A stretch of DNA of 64,000 bases from Chthoniobacterales bacterium (GTDB lineage Bacteria; Verrucomicrobiota; Verrucomicrobiia; Chthoniobacterales; JACTMZ01), in the NCBI GenBank assembly GCA_018883245.1, contig VEQL01000002.1, positions 1 through 64,000 of the forward strand, in the 5' to 3' direction. Shown piece after piece: positions 8,035-30,187 of the stretch (positions are counted from its first letter, which is position 1; each line of letters begins with the position of its first letter). A program made the translations under genes and the position numbers. The notes under the pieces were generated by a model that worked only from the letters and a program-made list of their open reading frames with translations, had not been told where the DNA came from and made no database searches.

Positions 8035-8496
8035 TCAGTTGTTTTCCGGCGTTTTGAACGAGACCCAGAAGAAGATGCCGACGGCGATGACAATGGCGGA
8101 ATCCGCGATATTGAATGCCGGCCAGTGATATTGGCCTATGTAAAAGTCGAGGAAATCGACAACGTGGCCGAACCGGAGGCGGTCGGTGATGTTCCCGAAA
8201 ATTCCCGCGAGAATCAGGGCGGCGGCGAGACGGCTGGGTCTGTCGGTGCTCTTGCGAAAGAGCAGCCAGAACATGACGCCGGCCATCGCCGTTCCGAACA
8301 CGATGTGGAAGTTGAACCAGCCTTTCATCATTCCGAAGGCCGAGCCGGTATTGAGGACGTGCACGAGGTTGAAAAATCCCGGCACCACGGGGATTTCCCG
8401 GTGCAGGGGAATGAACGTCAACGTTGCCCATTTGGTCACCTGATCCAGTGCAAACAGGGGCAGGGTGACAAGCAGAAGGAGTCGCACGGGAGTCAT
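8035..8496 (-). CDS. lspA: Lipoprotein signal peptidase (signal peptidase II)
   Basis: A 153-residue inner-membrane aspartic protease that cleaves signal peptides of diacylglyceryl-modified prolipoproteins. Four hydrophobic segments are visible. The family motifs are present: LDQVTKW at the end of the first segment, NTGSAFGM, GNITDRLRFGHVVDF with the first catalytic Asp region, and FNIADSAIVIAV with the second. The gene starts 33 bases after the ileS stop, the same linkage seen in many bacteria. Confidence 0.96.
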   Translation of the reverse strand: MTPVRLLLLVTLPLFALDQVTKWATLTFIPLHREIPVVPGFFNLVHVLNTGSAFGMMKGWFNFHIVFGTAMAGVMFWLLFRKSTDRPSRLAAALILAGIFGNITDRLRFGHVVDFLDFYIGQYHWPAFNIADSAIVIAVGIFFWVSFKTPENN

Positions 8497-8529: not shown

Positions 8530-11253
8530 CTAGCCGACTGCATCGGCGCATCGGTCGCAGAGCGCGGGGTGAGCCGGATGCTTGCCGACGCTCGGGCGGT
8601 GACGCCAGCACCGCGCGCATTTGGCAGATGCGGTTTTCACGATTTGTGCCGAATCGGACGGCCCGGATTCGAGCACCAGCTCGCTCAAGATGAAAAACTC
8701 CTCGAGTTCGGCCGCGAGCGGCTTCCACGCCTCGATCCACGCGGGATCGGCAACTTGCAATGTGACCCGGGCCTCAAGGTTGTTGGTGATGACTTTGTCC
8801 GCCCGCGCCTTTTCCAGAGCTTGCGAAACGATGGCGCGCAGTTCGAGCAGGCGGGAGCCTTCGGCCAGAGCTGCGGGATCCGCATTGCGCGGCGCGGGAA
8901 ACGACTGCAGGTGGACCGAATCGCCGGGGTGGAAGTAGCCCCACGCCTCCTCGGCGGTGAAGGCGAGAATGGGGGCGAGCAGACGCGTGAGCGAGGAAAG
9001 CACCTCGTGCATCGCGTCTTGCGTCGCCCGCCGCCTCTTGCTCCCGGGCGCATCGCAATACATGCGGTCCTTGGTGATATCGACATACAAGCTGCTGAGG
9101 TCCACGGCGCAGAACTGGTTGAGCGCATGGTAAACACGGTGGAACTCATAAGCCGCGTAAGCCTCCACGCACGTCTTCTCGACTTCCGCCAAGCGCGCGA
9201 GAATCCAGCGATCGACAGTTGTCGGTGCGGCGTCCGAGGACGCGCTGTGATCGTGAAGATTGCCGAGCAGGATGCGAAGCGTATTGCGTATCCGGCGGTA
9301 GGTGTCTCCGAGACGGTTGAACATCTCCTCCGAAAAGGGAACGTCGTCGGTGAAGTTCACGCTGCTGACCCAAAGCCGGACCAGATCCGCGCCGGATTTT
9401 TCGACGAAGTGCATCGCCTCGGTCGGCTTTTGGTATCCGCCTTGGGCGGACTTCGAGATTTTTTCCCGCGTATCGACATCGACGACAAAACCGTGGGTGA
9501 GGCAGGTGCGGTAGGGCGAACCGCCCTCGATCGCGACCGCGGTCATGAGTGACGACTGGAACCAACCACGGTGTTGGTCCGTGGCCTCCAGATAAAGGTC
9601 GGCGGGGTAATGCAGCTCCGGGCGGCGCCGCAGCACGGCTTGATGGCTGACGCCGGAATCGATCCACACATCGAGCGTGTCGTGGCCCTTGGTCGTTCCA
9701 GCCGGCAGTCCGAGCATCGCCGCGAGTTCGGCGTCCTGCATTTCGAACCACGCGTTGGTTCCGCGTTTTTCCACAAGGTCGGCAACCCGCAGGATCAGTC
9801 CGGCGTCGAGGATGGGTTCGCCCTGTGCGGAGTAGAACACGGGAAGCGGAACGCCCCAGCTGCGCTGCCGGCTGATGCACCAGTCGGGGCGCGACTCCAC
9901 GGTTCCGGTGATGCGCTTGAGTCCCCAGTCCGGAATCCATCGCGTGTTGTTGATGGCTTTGATCGCTTCGGGGCGGAGGTCGTCGATTCGGATGAAGAAC
10001 TGCTCGACTGTGCGGAAGATGATCGGCGTCTTCGATCGCCAACAATGCGGATACGAGTGTCGGTAAGGCGAGGCGCCGAGCAAAGCGCCCGTCGAGCGCA
10101 GGTGATCGACCACGAGGGGATTGGTCTCGAAGACTTGTTTTCCGACCCACGCACCCACGCCGCACTCCGCGGTGAAGCACCCCAGGTCATCGACCGGGCA
10201 AAGAATTTCGAGTCCCTTCGCTTTGCCCAAATGGAAGTCGTCGGCGCCGTGTCCGGGCGCAATGTGAACACAGCCTGTGCCGGTGTCCATGGTGACGAAA
10301 TCGGCCCCGAACACCGGCGACTCGCGGTCGAGGAACGGATGGCGGGCAACGGTTCCCTCGAGGTCCGCGCCGGAAAGTCTTCGCGCATCTCCCTGCGGTT
10401 GCCATCCGGTTTCCGCGACGAAGGCCTGGACGCGGTCCGCGGCCATGACAAGCAAGCGGGCTGTGCCATCCTTGGAAAAAGTCTGGAGGGCGTATTCGTG
10501 CTTCGGGCTCACCGCGATAGCCAAGTTCGCCGGCAACGTCCATGGTGTGGTGGTCCAAATGACGATGGCCGCGTCTTGGGGGATGTTTTTTCCACGCACC
10601 ACGGGGAATGCCACATGGACGGCTGGTGACTCCTTGTCTTTGTATTCCACCTCGGCCTCGGCGAGCGCCGTTTGTGCTCCGTAGCTCCAGAGCACCGGCC
10701 GTTTGCTGCGATAGACGAGGCCTTTTTCGACGAAGACAGAAAAGGCGCGCAGAATGTCCGCTTCGTAGGACGGATCGAGGGTGAGATAGGGGTGCTCCCA
10801 GTCGCCGAAGACGCCGAGGCGGCGGAATTGCTCCCGCTGCAAATCGATGTATTTGCGCGCGTAGGCTTCGGAGCGCTTGCGGACTTCGACCGGCGAAAGC
10901 CCGGCCTTTTCTTTGACCACCTTGAATTCGATCGGGAGACCGTGGCAATCCCAGCCGGGCACGAAGGGCGCGCGGAAGCCGGCCATGGTCTTGGACTTCA
11001 CGATGATGTCCTTGAGGATTTTGTTGAGCGCGGTGCCCATATGGACATCGCCGTTGGCGAAGGGGGGACCGTCGTGCAGGACAAAAAGCGGCGCATCCTG
11101 GCGCGCTTGCTGGATCCGTTGGTAGAGACTTTCTTTTTCCCACGTCGCCAGCTGCTGCGGTTCGCGGGCGGCAAGCCCGGCTTTCATTGGAAACTCGGTG
11201 CGCGGAAGATTCAGCGTCTTTTTGTAGTCTTCGCTCATGTCAAAAAGGTTCAT
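8530..11253 (-). CDS. ileS: Isoleucyl-tRNA synthetase
   Basis: A class I synthetase of about 907 residues that charges tRNA-Ile. It shows FVLHDGPPFANGDVHMGTAL, in which the HIGH motif is written HMGT, the editing domain (WTTTPWTLPANLA, then the editing-site Thr-rich loop), WCISRQRSWGVPLP, DVWIDSGVSH, and KISKS for KMSKS. The C-terminus keeps a zinc knuckle, CARCWRH...CDRC. The first base of the frame reaches 11280 by a TTG; the ATG at 11253 (MNLFDMSEDYKKTLN) or 11238 (MSEDYKKTL) fits the family better. The HMGT variant is seen in several bacterial groups and is probably functional. Confidence 0.95.
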   Translation of the reverse strand: MNLFDMSEDYKKTLNLPRTEFPMKAGLAAREPQQLATWEKESLYQRIQQARQDAPLFVLHDGPPFANGDVHMGTALNKILKDIIVKSKTMAGFRAPFVPGWDCHGLPIEFKVVKEKAGLSPVEVRKRSEAYARKYIDLQREQFRRLGVFGDWEHPYLTLDPSYEADILRAFSVFVEKGLVYRSKRPVLWSYGAQTALAEAEVEYKDKESPAVHVAFPVVRGKNIPQDAAIVIWTTTPWTLPANLAIAVSPKHEYALQTFSKDGTARLLVMAADRVQAFVAETGWQPQGDARRLSGADLEGTVARHPFLDRESPVFGADFVTMDTGTGCVHIAPGHGADDFHLGKAKGLEILCPVDDLGCFTAECGVGAWVGKQVFETNPLVVDHLRSTGALLGASPYRHSYPHCWRSKTPIIFRTVEQFFIRIDDLRPEAIKAINNTRWIPDWGLKRITGTVESRPDWCISRQRSWGVPLPVFYSAQGEPILDAGLILRVADLVEKRGTNAWFEMQDAELAAMLGLPAGTTKGHDTLDVWIDSGVSHQAVLRRRPELHYPADLYLEATDQHRGWFQSSLMTAVAIEGGSPYRTCLTHGFVVDVDTREKISKSAQGGYQKPTEAMHFVEKSGADLVRLWVSSVNFTDDVPFSEEMFNRLGDTYRRIRNTLRILLGNLHDHSASSDAAPTTVDRWILARLAEVEKTCVEAYAAYEFHRVYHALNQFCAVDLSSLYVDITKDRMYCDAPGSKRRRATQDAMHEVLSSLTRLLAPILAFTAEEAWGYFHPGDSVHLQSFPAPRNADPAALAEGSRLLELRAIVSQALEKARADKVITNNLEARVTLQVADPAWIEAWKPLAAELEEFFILSELVLESGPSDSAQIVKTASAKCARCWRHRPSVGKHPAHPALCDRCADAVG

Positions 11254-11386
11254 AATAGGCCGTGGAAGGGCCGAGGGCAAAAGTAGAAATTGACGCGGCC
11301 TTTACGCCGGACAGATTGGGTGCCGTGACGGCAAGGGAGAAACAGGGCGGCGGGGCGGCAAAGGCGGCACGTGCTGGCGTGCAGCC

Positions 11387-13378
11387 ATGAGCGCGGATTC
11401 GCCGAAAGGGGAGAGTCCGAAGCCTCGCAAGCGTTGGCCGCTGAGGACGGCCTTGATTGTGCTTATGGCGTTGTGTGCATGCGCGGGTTTTGTCGCGTGG
11501 AAGGGACCCTCGGCGGCATTACGCTGGGCGGTGAGGACGTGGGATCCGGCTTTGAGGCTGAGAATCGACAAAAGCATCTACCACGACGGCGAGTGGGTTC
11601 TTCGTGGCGTGGCTTTGGAGTTGCGCGGACGGCGTGACCCGGTTTTCCGGAGCAAAGAAATCCGCGCCGGTTTGGGATCGGGGTGGATGCGCGGGAAAAT
11701 CGGAGCGCTGCGGCTCGTGGAGCCCATTGTTCATTTGGACAAGGTTTCTCTCGCGCATTTTTCACGCGGATCTTCGGGCCAACTCCCGATAACGATCGGG
11801 AAAGTCTCGATCGAGCGCGGACACATTTGGCTGGAGAACGCGGGAGAGCAGGGGCTGGAGGTTTCTGCGGACTTCCAGGGAGAGATGAGCTCGATCGGTC
11901 CCGGAAGCAGCGGCGAGACGCGGGAGCTTGCGTTCTCGAATGTGTATGTGGCTGCGCGTGACGGTGACTCCACGCTTCCGGTTTTGGGGGCCGACCGTGC
12001 TGGTGTGCGGTTCACGTTGGACGGATTGCTGGCGGGACGCCTCGCCGGTGCGAGGATCGAAGGCGGATGGATGGTCGCGGGTGAGGGACTCCGCAAACTC
12101 ATGGCGGACTCCGGACATGACGGTGGGAACGGAGGCGAGGGCGGGTTTGTTCTGGAGTCTCTGGACATCGTGAAGATGCAGCTCCAGCCCGACGGCTTGC
12201 CCGGCGGCTTGCCCGAGCTGCGCCTGCGGGTGAATACCGCGCTGCGCAACGTGCCGCTCGGCGCGGTGACAAAGGAATTGGCGCAGACCGTCCACCAGAT
12301 CGAATTCAGCGATGTGGAATTGCTCTCACCCACGGATCCTCTGCGGCGCGCCGTCACCATCCGCTCGCTTTTCGTCAAATTCACGCTCGAGGGCCTGGCA
12401 CGGCGCGATCTGGAGGAATTGATCGTTCTCGGTCCGACCGTTTATGTCGGCGAGCCGCTATTCGAATACATGCAGGGCGCGGACAAGGCGGCAGGGCCTC
12501 CGCAGCCGGACCAAGAATGGAACGTGGACAAGTTGCAGATCAACTTCGGCCGCGTGGTCATCGCCGTCGGCGGGCGCTCGCAGGTCGGTTTGCCTTTGGC
12601 TTTCCACACGTCGGTCACCAATCTTTCGCTGTCATCACTTGCCGGTCTGAATGTGGAGCTGGTCCTGACCGTCCCCACCGAAGACTACGATTTTCCCGCT
12701 TACGATCTGTCGCTGTCGAATGTCCGCGGCGACCTGCGCTTCAATTACCCGCCGGCGTGGAACCGGAACAACCTCGTCAACGTGATCAAGTTCGACCGTG
12801 CGCGTTGGAGAAACTTCCACGCGAGCGAACTCTGGTTGTCGGTGACCTACGATGAAAAAGGCATCAACGGGCTCTTCGGCGGCCGCGCGTATCGCGGTTA
12901 TGTCAACGGAGGTTTCAGCTTTTTTCTCCAGCCTGATTCCCCGTGGACCGGATGGGTGGCGGGAACAAGCGTCGATCTCGATCCGCTCACTGCAGACGGA
13001 GTTCCGCAGCACGTCGTTATGGACGGCCGGAGCAACTTCAAACTCGAGGCCAATGGCCGTGCTGCCGTGGTGGAACGCGTGTCCGGCAGCGCCGCCGCGA
13101 AGGGGAAGGGCCGTCTGGTCGTGAACAAGCTCAACGATATGCTCGCGGCGATCCCGGCGGAATGGTCGGCTCTGAAAAGTGAACTGACGCGGGTCAGCCT
13201 TGAGACCTTGCGCGACTTCGACTACACGAAAGCGTCATCGGATTTCTGGTTTGTGGGCAAGCAGGGCATTATAAACGTCAACATGAAAGGCCCTGCTGGT
13301 TCGCGGAATTTGGAGATGGTTTTCCACGGGCGCGACACGGCAAAGACGGCCCGTTGGCAGCAAGGGGGGCGGAGATGA
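11387..13378 (+). CDS. YdbH-like AsmA-family protein
   Basis: A 663-residue protein with an N-terminal membrane anchor (RTALIVLMALCACAGFVAW, residues about 21-39) and a long periplasmic beta-rich body rich in LRGVALELRG-type strands, the style of the AsmA/YdbH/TamB bridge proteins that carry phospholipid between the two membranes. The C-terminal 170 residues (LDPLTADGVPQHVVMDGRSN, VVERVSGSAAAKGKGRLVV, then the strand NVNMKGPAGSRNLEMVFHG) resemble the YdbH C-terminal domain. The strongest support is the next gene, which overlaps by ATGA and carries YnbE-like and YdbL-like sequences, the partners of YdbH in enterobacteria. Function in lipid transport is inferred from that. Confidence 0.7.
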   Translation: MSADSPKGESPKPRKRWPLRTALIVLMALCACAGFVAWKGPSAALRWAVRTWDPALRLRIDKSIYHDGEWVLRGVALELRGRRDPVFRSKEIRAGLGSGWMRGKIGALRLVEPIVHLDKVSLAHFSRGSSGQLPITIGKVSIERGHIWLENAGEQGLEVSADFQGEMSSIGPGSSGETRELAFSNVYVAARDGDSTLPVLGADRAGVRFTLDGLLAGRLAGARIEGGWMVAGEGLRKLMADSGHDGGNGGEGGFVLESLDIVKMQLQPDGLPGGLPELRLRVNTALRNVPLGAVTKELAQTVHQIEFSDVELLSPTDPLRRAVTIRSLFVKFTLEGLARRDLEELIVLGPTVYVGEPLFEYMQGADKAAGPPQPDQEWNVDKLQINFGRVVIAVGGRSQVGLPLAFHTSVTNLSLSSLAGLNVELVLTVPTEDYDFPAYDLSLSNVRGDLRFNYPPAWNRNNLVNVIKFDRARWRNFHASELWLSVTYDEKGINGLFGGRAYRGYVNGGFSFFLQPDSPWTGWVAGTSVDLDPLTADGVPQHVVMDGRSNFKLEANGRAAVVERVSGSAAAKGKGRLVVNKLNDMLAAIPAEWSALKSELTRVSLETLRDFDYTKASSDFWFVGKQGIINVNMKGPAGSRNLEMVFHGRDTAKTARWQQGGRR

Positions 13379-13872
13379 AGTGGTCCGCCGCAGCCATTCC
13401 CGTGCTCTTGCTGGCCGCAGCTTGCAAGGGGCCGAACGTGAGCCTGTCCACCCCCGAGCCGATCGTCGTGGATATCAACATGCGCGTGGACATTTACGAA
13501 CGCGGCGGCGGTTCGTCGTCGGCCAAGCCCTCGCCCGCGGCGGACATGCCGGCGGCCGATGCAAGGCGGCGTTCGCGGACGGGTGACATCCAGACGTTCA
13601 AGAATTCGCGTCTGGTCGGGGAGGGGCGCGACGGCCTGCTGTCCGTGCTCAGCCGGCCCGAGGGCAGCTACGGCGCGTATGTCGAGAAGACGGTGGCGGA
13701 AGAAAATGCCGACCGTCTGGTGGTCATGCGGGAGCTTGCCGCCGAGCGCAAAATGTCGTTGCCCGAGGTTCAGGCGCAACAGGGGGAGTTGTGGCGCAAC
13801 AGGTCGTTCAGCGGCGAGTGGGTCGAGGTTTTGCAGGACAACAACTCGTGGCGCTGGGCCCAGAAGCAATAG
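13375..13872 (+). CDS. YnbE-YdbL composite lipoprotein
   Basis: A 165-residue protein. Residues 1-17 (IPVLLLAAAC) form a lipoprotein signal with the lipidated Cys at 17. Residues 18-40 (GPNVSLSTPEPIVVDINMRV) follow the short YnbE pattern of a proline-flanked beta strand ending in INM.V.I. After a Gly/Ser/Pro/Ala linker, residues about 70-165 (SRLVGEGRDGLLSVL, then ENADRLVVMRELAAERKM, ending GEWVEVLQDNNSWRWAQ) match the YdbL/DUF1318 plan. In enterobacteria YdbH, YnbE and YdbL are three separate genes working as one system; here the last two are one chain. The start codon overlaps the stop of the upstream gene. Confidence 0.68.
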   Translation: MKWSAAAIPVLLLAAACKGPNVSLSTPEPIVVDINMRVDIYERGGGSSSAKPSPAADMPAADARRRSRTGDIQTFKNSRLVGEGRDGLLSVLSRPEGSYGAYVEKTVAEENADRLVVMRELAAERKMSLPEVQAQQGELWRNRSFSGEWVEVLQDNNSWRWAQKQ

Positions 13873-28810: not shown

Positions 28811-30187
28811 TCAGGGCGCGCCGATAAGGTTGAGGAAAAGCTCGCCGACGCGCCCGCCTGCGCCGCCCCCGAAAAGGCTCGAGGCCAGATTGCTGCTCGG
28901 TTTCTCGAGTGTTCCCGTCACGCGGAAGCGGACCTCGTGATACCCGGAAAAACTCTCGCGGTTGCTCTCCGGAATTTCCCGCCGCGTCAACGATGTCAGT
29001 CGTGCTGCAACGGGCGGACTGAGCAGCAGGTGGCCGCGCAGATCGAGCGTGCCCGTGCGCGTCACGGTGCCCGACAGCTCGACGGCGAATTCCTCCGCGC
29101 GCAGCCAGATCGGTTCGATGTGCAGAAGGTCGTCGTCGAGACGAAGATCGGCCGTGGCTTCCTTCAAGTTGACCCCGCGCGCCTCGCGGATCCCCAAGAT
29201 CTCGCCGAGCCCCTGCAGATAAGGCGACGGAACAAGCCGCCCCTCGTCGATTTTTACCCGGCCATGACCCGCGACCGTGCGGCCCGGAGCATTGCGGCCC
29301 TCGAGTTCGACGTCCGTGGAAAGGCGACCCTCGATCCGCGTTCCGCCGAACGACGAGGGCAGAGTGAGACGCGCCATGTCCAGCCCGTCCAGGCGCAGCG
29401 ACCATCGGTAAGGCGAGCCTTCCTGCTTCGTGGCGATGCGTCCGCTGCCGGAGAGCGCCCCGCCGGACACATCCCCGCGGATATCCGGAAAAGAAAGATT
29501 GCCGCCATCGAGGGCGAAGCCCGACTCGAGTCCCGTCGCGACAAGCAGCCCCGCGAGCACTGCTTCGGGAATTCCCGCGGTTCCCTTGGCGTCACCGTTC
29601 GCATCGAGCGAAGCCGACGCAGTGATGCCGTCCGCGTCGAGCAATGGCCAGCCGTCGCGGTTCTCGAAGACCATGCGCGAACGCAACACTTGCAACTGTT
29701 CGACCCGCACCTCGAACGGCGCCGCGGTTTCCTGAGCGGGCTCCGCAGCGGGAGTGGTCGCGGCGGCGGGCGAGCCGGCCGGCATCGGCTTCGCGTCCAA
29801 AGCGCGACGCGGGATCCGCCATTGCCCCCCGGAATTCTGGCGCCATGTAACCACCGCTTCTTTGAGACAGACGCTGCTGACCACAAATTGCCTCCTCAGG
29901 AGCGGTGCCAGGCGGAAGCGGATCTGGAACTCTGAAGCCTCGACGAAGTTCACACCGGCGTTGACCATGTCCGGTATGACGATCCCTCGAAGGCGGATAC
30001 CGTCCCATGGCGTGTAAAAAGTGCTGCGCACGGTAAGGGGAAGGCCGATGGTGTCCATGGCCGCCTTGCGCAACTCGCTCTGCATCGCGGCCGATTGCAG
30101 CTGCACGTTGACGGCAACGACCGCCACGGCGATCAACAGAATGATCGCCGACAGCGCATACAGACACGGCCGGAGGAAGGGCGGCAT
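28811..30187 (-). CDS. AsmA-like periplasmic protein
   Basis: A 458-residue protein with one N-terminal membrane helix (LYALSAIILLIAVAVVAVNV) and a beta-rich periplasmic body in the AsmA style: GLPLTVRSTFYTPWDGIRLR near the start, repeated strands such as VEQLQVLRSRMVFENRDGWP, and a C-terminal segment ADLRLDDDLLHIEPIWLRAE then FAVELSGTVTRTGTLDLRGH. An alanine/proline spacer of about 25 residues lies at about 135-160. It heads the minus-strand LPS run, ending 3 bases before rsmD, so it may affect envelope lipid transport; no substrate can be inferred. Confidence 0.7.
   Translation of the reverse strand: MPPFLRPCLYALSAIILLIAVAVVAVNVQLQSAAMQSELRKAAMDTIGLPLTVRSTFYTPWDGIRLRGIVIPDMVNAGVNFVEASEFQIRFRLAPLLRRQFVVSSVCLKEAVVTWRQNSGGQWRIPRRALDAKPMPAGSPAAATTPAAEPAQETAAPFEVRVEQLQVLRSRMVFENRDGWPLLDADGITASASLDANGDAKGTAGIPEAVLAGLLVATGLESGFALDGGNLSFPDIRGDVSGGALSGSGRIATKQEGSPYRWSLRLDGLDMARLTLPSSFGGTRIEGRLSTDVELEGRNAPGRTVAGHGRVKIDEGRLVPSPYLQGLGEILGIREARGVNLKEATADLRLDDDLLHIEPIWLRAEEFAVELSGTVTRTGTLDLRGHLLLSPPVAARLTSLTRREIPESNRESFSGYHEVRFRVTGTLEKPSSNLASSLFGGGAGGRVGELFLNLIGAP

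Follow-up and report, generated by a model that had tools for sequence, protein, structure and literature searches.

Organization of the locus

Two genes lie on the forward strand of the window, as we call the whole stretch of 64,000 nucleotides that was analysed. The first (11387..13378, +) is an ATG-start open reading frame predicted to encode a YdbH-like protein of the AsmA superfamily with 663 amino acids, an assignment that draws on a fold match, a C-terminal profile match and co-occurrence with the lipoprotein gene. The second (13375..13872, +), also with an ATG start and with no stop inside the frame, encodes a lipoprotein of 165 amino acids in which YnbE- and YdbL-like parts are fused. 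The two frames have 4 nt in common, an ATGA stop-start overlap at 13375..13378 (+), and the initial annotation of this DNA had given both the coordinates and the overlap with the YdbH-like gene correctly; the ydbH and ynbE genes of E. coli also overlap by 4 nt. Upstream, and divergent from the pair, a reading of the sequence finds an isoleucyl-tRNA synthetase-like gene (8530-11280, -) and a lipoprotein signal peptidase-like gene (8035-8496, -). When both proteins of the pair were searched with Pfam and NCBIfam, DUF1318 in the small protein was the sole match.

The YdbH protein of E. coli has an interaction partner in YnbE, a lipoprotein of the outer membrane (PMC12977461, PMC11784454), and strand augmentation at the YdbH C-terminus has been proposed as the contact between them (PMC12045153). 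YdbH is redundant with TamB and YhdP, the three being jointly essential (PMC8593681).

The small protein combines a YnbE-like segment with a DUF1318 domain

The signal peptide of the 165-amino-acid protein ends in the lipobox-like sequence LAAAC (13411..13425, +), the cysteine of which (residue 17) was invariant in 57 of 57 aligned fused relatives. Aspartate followed this cysteine at position +1 in none of the 57 rows, which fits outer-membrane sorting of the fused lipoprotein, the sorting rule being that of E. coli. Beginning with the cysteine of LAAAC, the chain reads C-K-G-P-N-V-S-L-S-T-P-E-P-I-V-V-D-I-N-M-R-V-D-I-Y before it enters a variable linker and then DUF1318. These residues (17–41; 13423..13497, +) make up the YnbE-like segment, in which the lipobox cysteine is followed by an alternating hydrophobic strand, P29-I40, with the pattern P-[IV]-x-[VI]-x-[IM]-N-x-x-[VI]; the E. 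coli YnbE counterpart aligned to the segment is CTPRIEVAAPKEPITINMNVKIE. Every second strand residue is hydrophobic in both proteins, as would be expected of a strand that lines a hydrophobic groove.

Compared as profiles, the N-termini of the mature proteins and enterobacterial YnbE matched with a probability of 93 and E = 4e-7, a score reached by none of 60 column-shuffled profiles. When the segment was aligned directly to E. coli YnbE, with the cysteine as anchor, the pairwise score exceeded those of all 20,000 shuffles. An earlier form of the profile test, which used 45 residues and members of the order only, had scored above every shuffle but weakly; the value of 4e-7 was obtained with the shorter segment and more sequences. 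The Pfam model for YnbE (PF13617, Lipoprotein_19) did not match the 165-amino-acid protein, and it matched one of the 57 relatives (E = 0.026) and none of 388 genomes across the phylum; since free YnbE-like lipoproteins do occur in Verrucomicrobiota, this model is blind there.

The DUF1318/YdbL domain (PF07027) covers residues 69–152 (13579..13830, +), where its score of 45 bits lies well above the gathering score of 27 (E = 1.6e-11), and the same model matched all 57 fused relatives at E ≤ 0.1. An AlphaFold2 model built with the 57 aligned relatives had a pLDDT of ~97-98 for the DUF1318 half (residues 61–165), and Foldseek returned a single significant PDB match for the lipoprotein model, to E. 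coli YdbL as crystallised in entry 28oj (E = 5e-5, with a TM of 0.85 on the target). E. coli YdbL is a free secreted periplasmic protein, which the window protein is not; as the C-terminal half of a lipoprotein, its counterpart here is a DUF1318 domain and not a free YdbL. The pLDDT was ~45-62 for residues 1–50, with the YnbE-like strand at low confidence and unpaired in the monomer; such lack of order in the model would be natural for a strand that depends on a partner. Residues 42–53 (13498..13533, +) are predicted to be a flexible linker, being variable among relatives and of low pLDDT. A lipobox, a YnbE-like strand and a YdbL-like domain thus occur in one chain, as the initial annotation had read it, and profile searches found similarity of the small protein to both YnbE and YdbL, although PF13617 itself was silent.

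Most of the relatives come from metagenome-assembled genomes, and a fusion of this kind might be an artefact of assembly or gene calling. To this we attach practically no probability, as the frame has no internal stop, 57 full-length members can be aligned, both domains are conserved around a variable linker, and the same architecture is found in Methylacidiphilum sp. Yel, the record of which is not labelled as metagenome-assembled. An artefact or a chance origin of the fusion is ruled out by the 57 conserved members.

The 663-amino-acid protein resembles YdbH at its C-terminus

A transmembrane helix is predicted at residues 17–39 of the large protein (11435..11503, +), from the model and from the hydrophobic sequence, and would serve as its inner-membrane anchor. 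The model as a whole (pLDDT 79, pTM 0.58) consists of this single helix at the N-terminus and an extended series of beta-strands that form a beta-groove, and its best fold match in the PDB was LPD-3 (E=2.7e-13), with the N-terminus of Atg2 next. LPD-3, Atg2 and Vps13 are bridge-like lipid-transfer proteins that have the repeating beta-groove fold in common with the window protein; unlike it, they are eukaryotic, far longer and found at organelle contacts, and the likeness is one of fold.

The C-terminal region (residues 528–658; 12968..13360, +) contains the conserved motif LRDFDY...GP.GSR and is homologous by hhalign to the C-terminus of YdbH, and it is the proposed docking end for YnbE. When 26 members of the order were compared with a YdbH alignment of enterobacterial and Pfam-positive Verrucomicrobiota sequences, 125 C-terminal columns were matched with a probability of 97 and E = 8e-11, against E = 0.013 for a reversed control. 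The profile was not significant against gamma-proteobacterial YdbH alone, so that the bridging families were required. The YdbH model PF11739 matched neither the 663-amino-acid protein nor any other sequence in its genome, and the best match in the order was that of a relative from the same genus to the C-terminal part of the model (16.8 bits, E = 0.003). The protein therefore has an AsmA/bridge-superfamily fold with a YdbH-like C-terminus, and the label 'YdbH-like' that it had been given is right but remote, because Pfam is silent and the profile match is limited to the C-terminus. At another locus from the same genus (L085; G049:C33:92264-94213) the ydbH-like gene runs over more than one frame and has an internal stop, either as a pseudogene or through an assembly error.

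Co-occurrence and distribution of the pair

DUF1318 was found in 34 of the 147 genomes of the order. The large protein was found in the same 34 genomes and as one partial copy in G061, the only genome of the order with half of the pair; there were three more weak matches (E ~3e-4). This co-occurrence of 34/34 (Fisher p ~1e-32, with genomes counted as independent though they are not) shows that the pair is conserved and co-inherited. Among the 30 fused loci for which an upstream gene was found, the start frame of the lipoprotein relative to that gene was identical in every case, with 28 overlapping and 17 of these by exactly 4 nt; 18 three-gene loci had scattered frames and gaps.

Beyond the order, the fused lipoprotein is present in other parts of the class and in further classes of the phylum (families f16, f18, f19, f25, f46, f49 and f86, genus g93 of f29 and genus g163 of f45). 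Among 84,980 species genomes scanned, it was found in Verrucomicrobiota, mostly Chthoniobacterales/'Spartobacteria', and in Candidatus Omnitrophota, with names taken as recorded although a few labels of metagenome-assembled genomes look wrong; the window was itself assigned to its phylum by these matches. A compact two-gene form had been suggested for this phylum: it is indeed present there, in several families, but many families have three genes and the fused form extends to Omnitrophota. Methylacidiphilum-like genomes (L119/L120, L135/L136) have two DUF1318 lipoproteins each, the second with a degenerate YnbE strand.

Three-gene loci and the history of the fusion

In other Verrucomicrobiota families, f17, f34, f54, f66 and f81 for example, the YnbE-like lipoprotein and a signal-peptide YdbL are separate, and in many such cases the upstream protein is a YdbH called by Pfam (E down to 4e-31). 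In these loci (e.g. L107, L114, L116) the three domains are those of the window pair and follow one another as they do there; the loci differ from the pair in that the lipoprotein, of 58-95 aa, and the YdbL with its own signal peptide are encoded apart. As the gene order in these sister genomes is Pfam-positive YdbH, free YnbE-like lipoprotein and free YdbL, the fusion joins exactly those two partners. At locus L123 the gene ahead of the fused lipoprotein encodes a YdbH that Pfam does recognise (E = 7e-25), which links the fused form to the three-gene form. A YdbL-domain tree requires at least six changes to explain the fused state, only one of them forced by well-supported branches, a pattern that either repeated fusion or fission could give. 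In family f30 (L226, L238) signal-peptide DUF1318 proteins were seen with no YnbE-like partner in the ~800 bases upstream.

The fused loci of Omnitrophota (L194-L207) resemble the window pair in the fusion itself, in the strand motif of the lipoprotein (profile probability 98.9) and, mostly, in an ATGA overlap with an AsmA/YdbH-like gene. They differ in that the YnbE helix is kept and the YdbH-like protein has only ~290-400 aa, seemingly short to span a periplasm. Two short YdbH-like genes lie in tandem ahead of the fused lipoprotein at L198:3000-4401, and at L193:3605-5007 the ATGA overlap is with an M48-type peptidase-like gene and not with a YdbH-like gene.

Given that the 663-amino-acid protein is remote from YdbH, that for seven of its relatives in the order YdbH is a poorer match than the general AsmA-type family DUF748, and that AsmA-family members of E. 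coli have several roles, the pair could be an envelope module of the AsmA family that does something else, for instance outer-membrane protein assembly or the sorting of other lipids, so that its resemblance to YnbE and YdbL would reflect ancestry and not function. Against this stand the gene order and overlap of E. coli ydbH-ynbE, the same two partners, the near-unbroken co-occurrence and the intermediates within the phylum, in which a Pfam-positive YdbH has the same partner; we regard another job as unlikely.

A probable compact form of the YdbH-type bridge

The reading we favour, and think probable, is that the pair is a compact form of the YdbH-type phospholipid bridge, with strand docking and a YdbL domain that acts in cis. 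The pair has in common with E. coli ydbH-ynbE-ydbL the gene order, the 4-nt overlap, an inner-membrane helix with a beta-groove, a lipoprotein strand and the DUF1318 fold. It differs in that the bridge protein is shorter, with 663 aa where YdbH has 879 aa, and can be recognised by its C-terminus alone, in that a linker takes the place of the C-terminal helix of YnbE, and in that YnbE and YdbL form one chain, so that YdbL is membrane-tethered.

On this model, the 663-amino-acid protein would be anchored in the inner membrane by its one helix and extend a hydrophobic beta-groove across the periplasm. The lipoprotein would sit in the outer membrane via acylated Cys17, and its strand P29-I40 would add to the edge of the C-terminal groove, completing the path for phospholipid tails in a complex of the two proteins; a function in lipid transport is suggested by homology and by fold. 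YdbL is said to have been suggested by Kumar and colleagues, in PNAS in 2024, to prevent runaway YnbE multimers, a chaperone role to which the name of PDB entry 28oj also points. In E. coli YdbL is a protein of its own; here, as a domain joined to the strand by a short linker, it would act on that strand in cis and stop the exposed edge from pairing with further YnbE strands, and one strand would thereby be delivered per bridge.

A tethered domain cannot leave, and its conserved core residues E110, N111 and R114 have no catalytic role known to us. The domain might accordingly be imagined as a structural spacer, or as a periplasm-facing part that holds the end of the bridge, and no longer as a chaperone of YnbE. 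We consider such a change of role rather improbable, though less so than another job for the whole pair, since the DUF1318 fold is intact and the conserved residues are the same in free YdbL relatives.

For the compact bridge with a cis-acting YdbL domain, the parts are those of a known system and the two-gene fused form is new, as far as the literature searched shows; no description of a YnbE-YdbL fusion was found in it. The fusions in several Verrucomicrobiota families and in Omnitrophota say that YnbE and YdbL act closely on one another, at 1:1, a clear case of gene fusion predicting partnership, and that a bridge can work with its YdbL tethered. The fusion also bears on the question of whether YdbL in E. 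coli is a transient chaperone or a lasting part, and the spread of the fused form hints that this 'chaperone' belongs to the bridge permanently. Its main value is a testable statement on YdbL, and it extends the YdbH-type bridge to lineages in which the YnbE model of Pfam finds nothing.

More tentatively, the fused lipoprotein might be a permanent stoichiometric end-piece, the YdbL domain of which stays on the completed bridge as a cap over the free edge of the YnbE strand instead of serving as a transient chaperone, with the pair as the cell's only full-length phospholipid bridge; we hold this stronger proposal to be doubtful. Its last part was put forward because TamB, YhdP and a second Omp85 were not detected. 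The Pfam models of TamB and YhdP had no match in the genome that contains the window, which is weak evidence of absence because Pfam misses the window's own bridge too; in this genome phospholipids may travel mainly by the YdbH-type bridge. A search of the genome with the alignment built for the large protein found no paralogue. The genome encodes one Omp85 protein and, as the only other AsmA-type match, a second AsmA-family protein of 458 aa (28811-30187, -; PF05170, E=1.6e-11).
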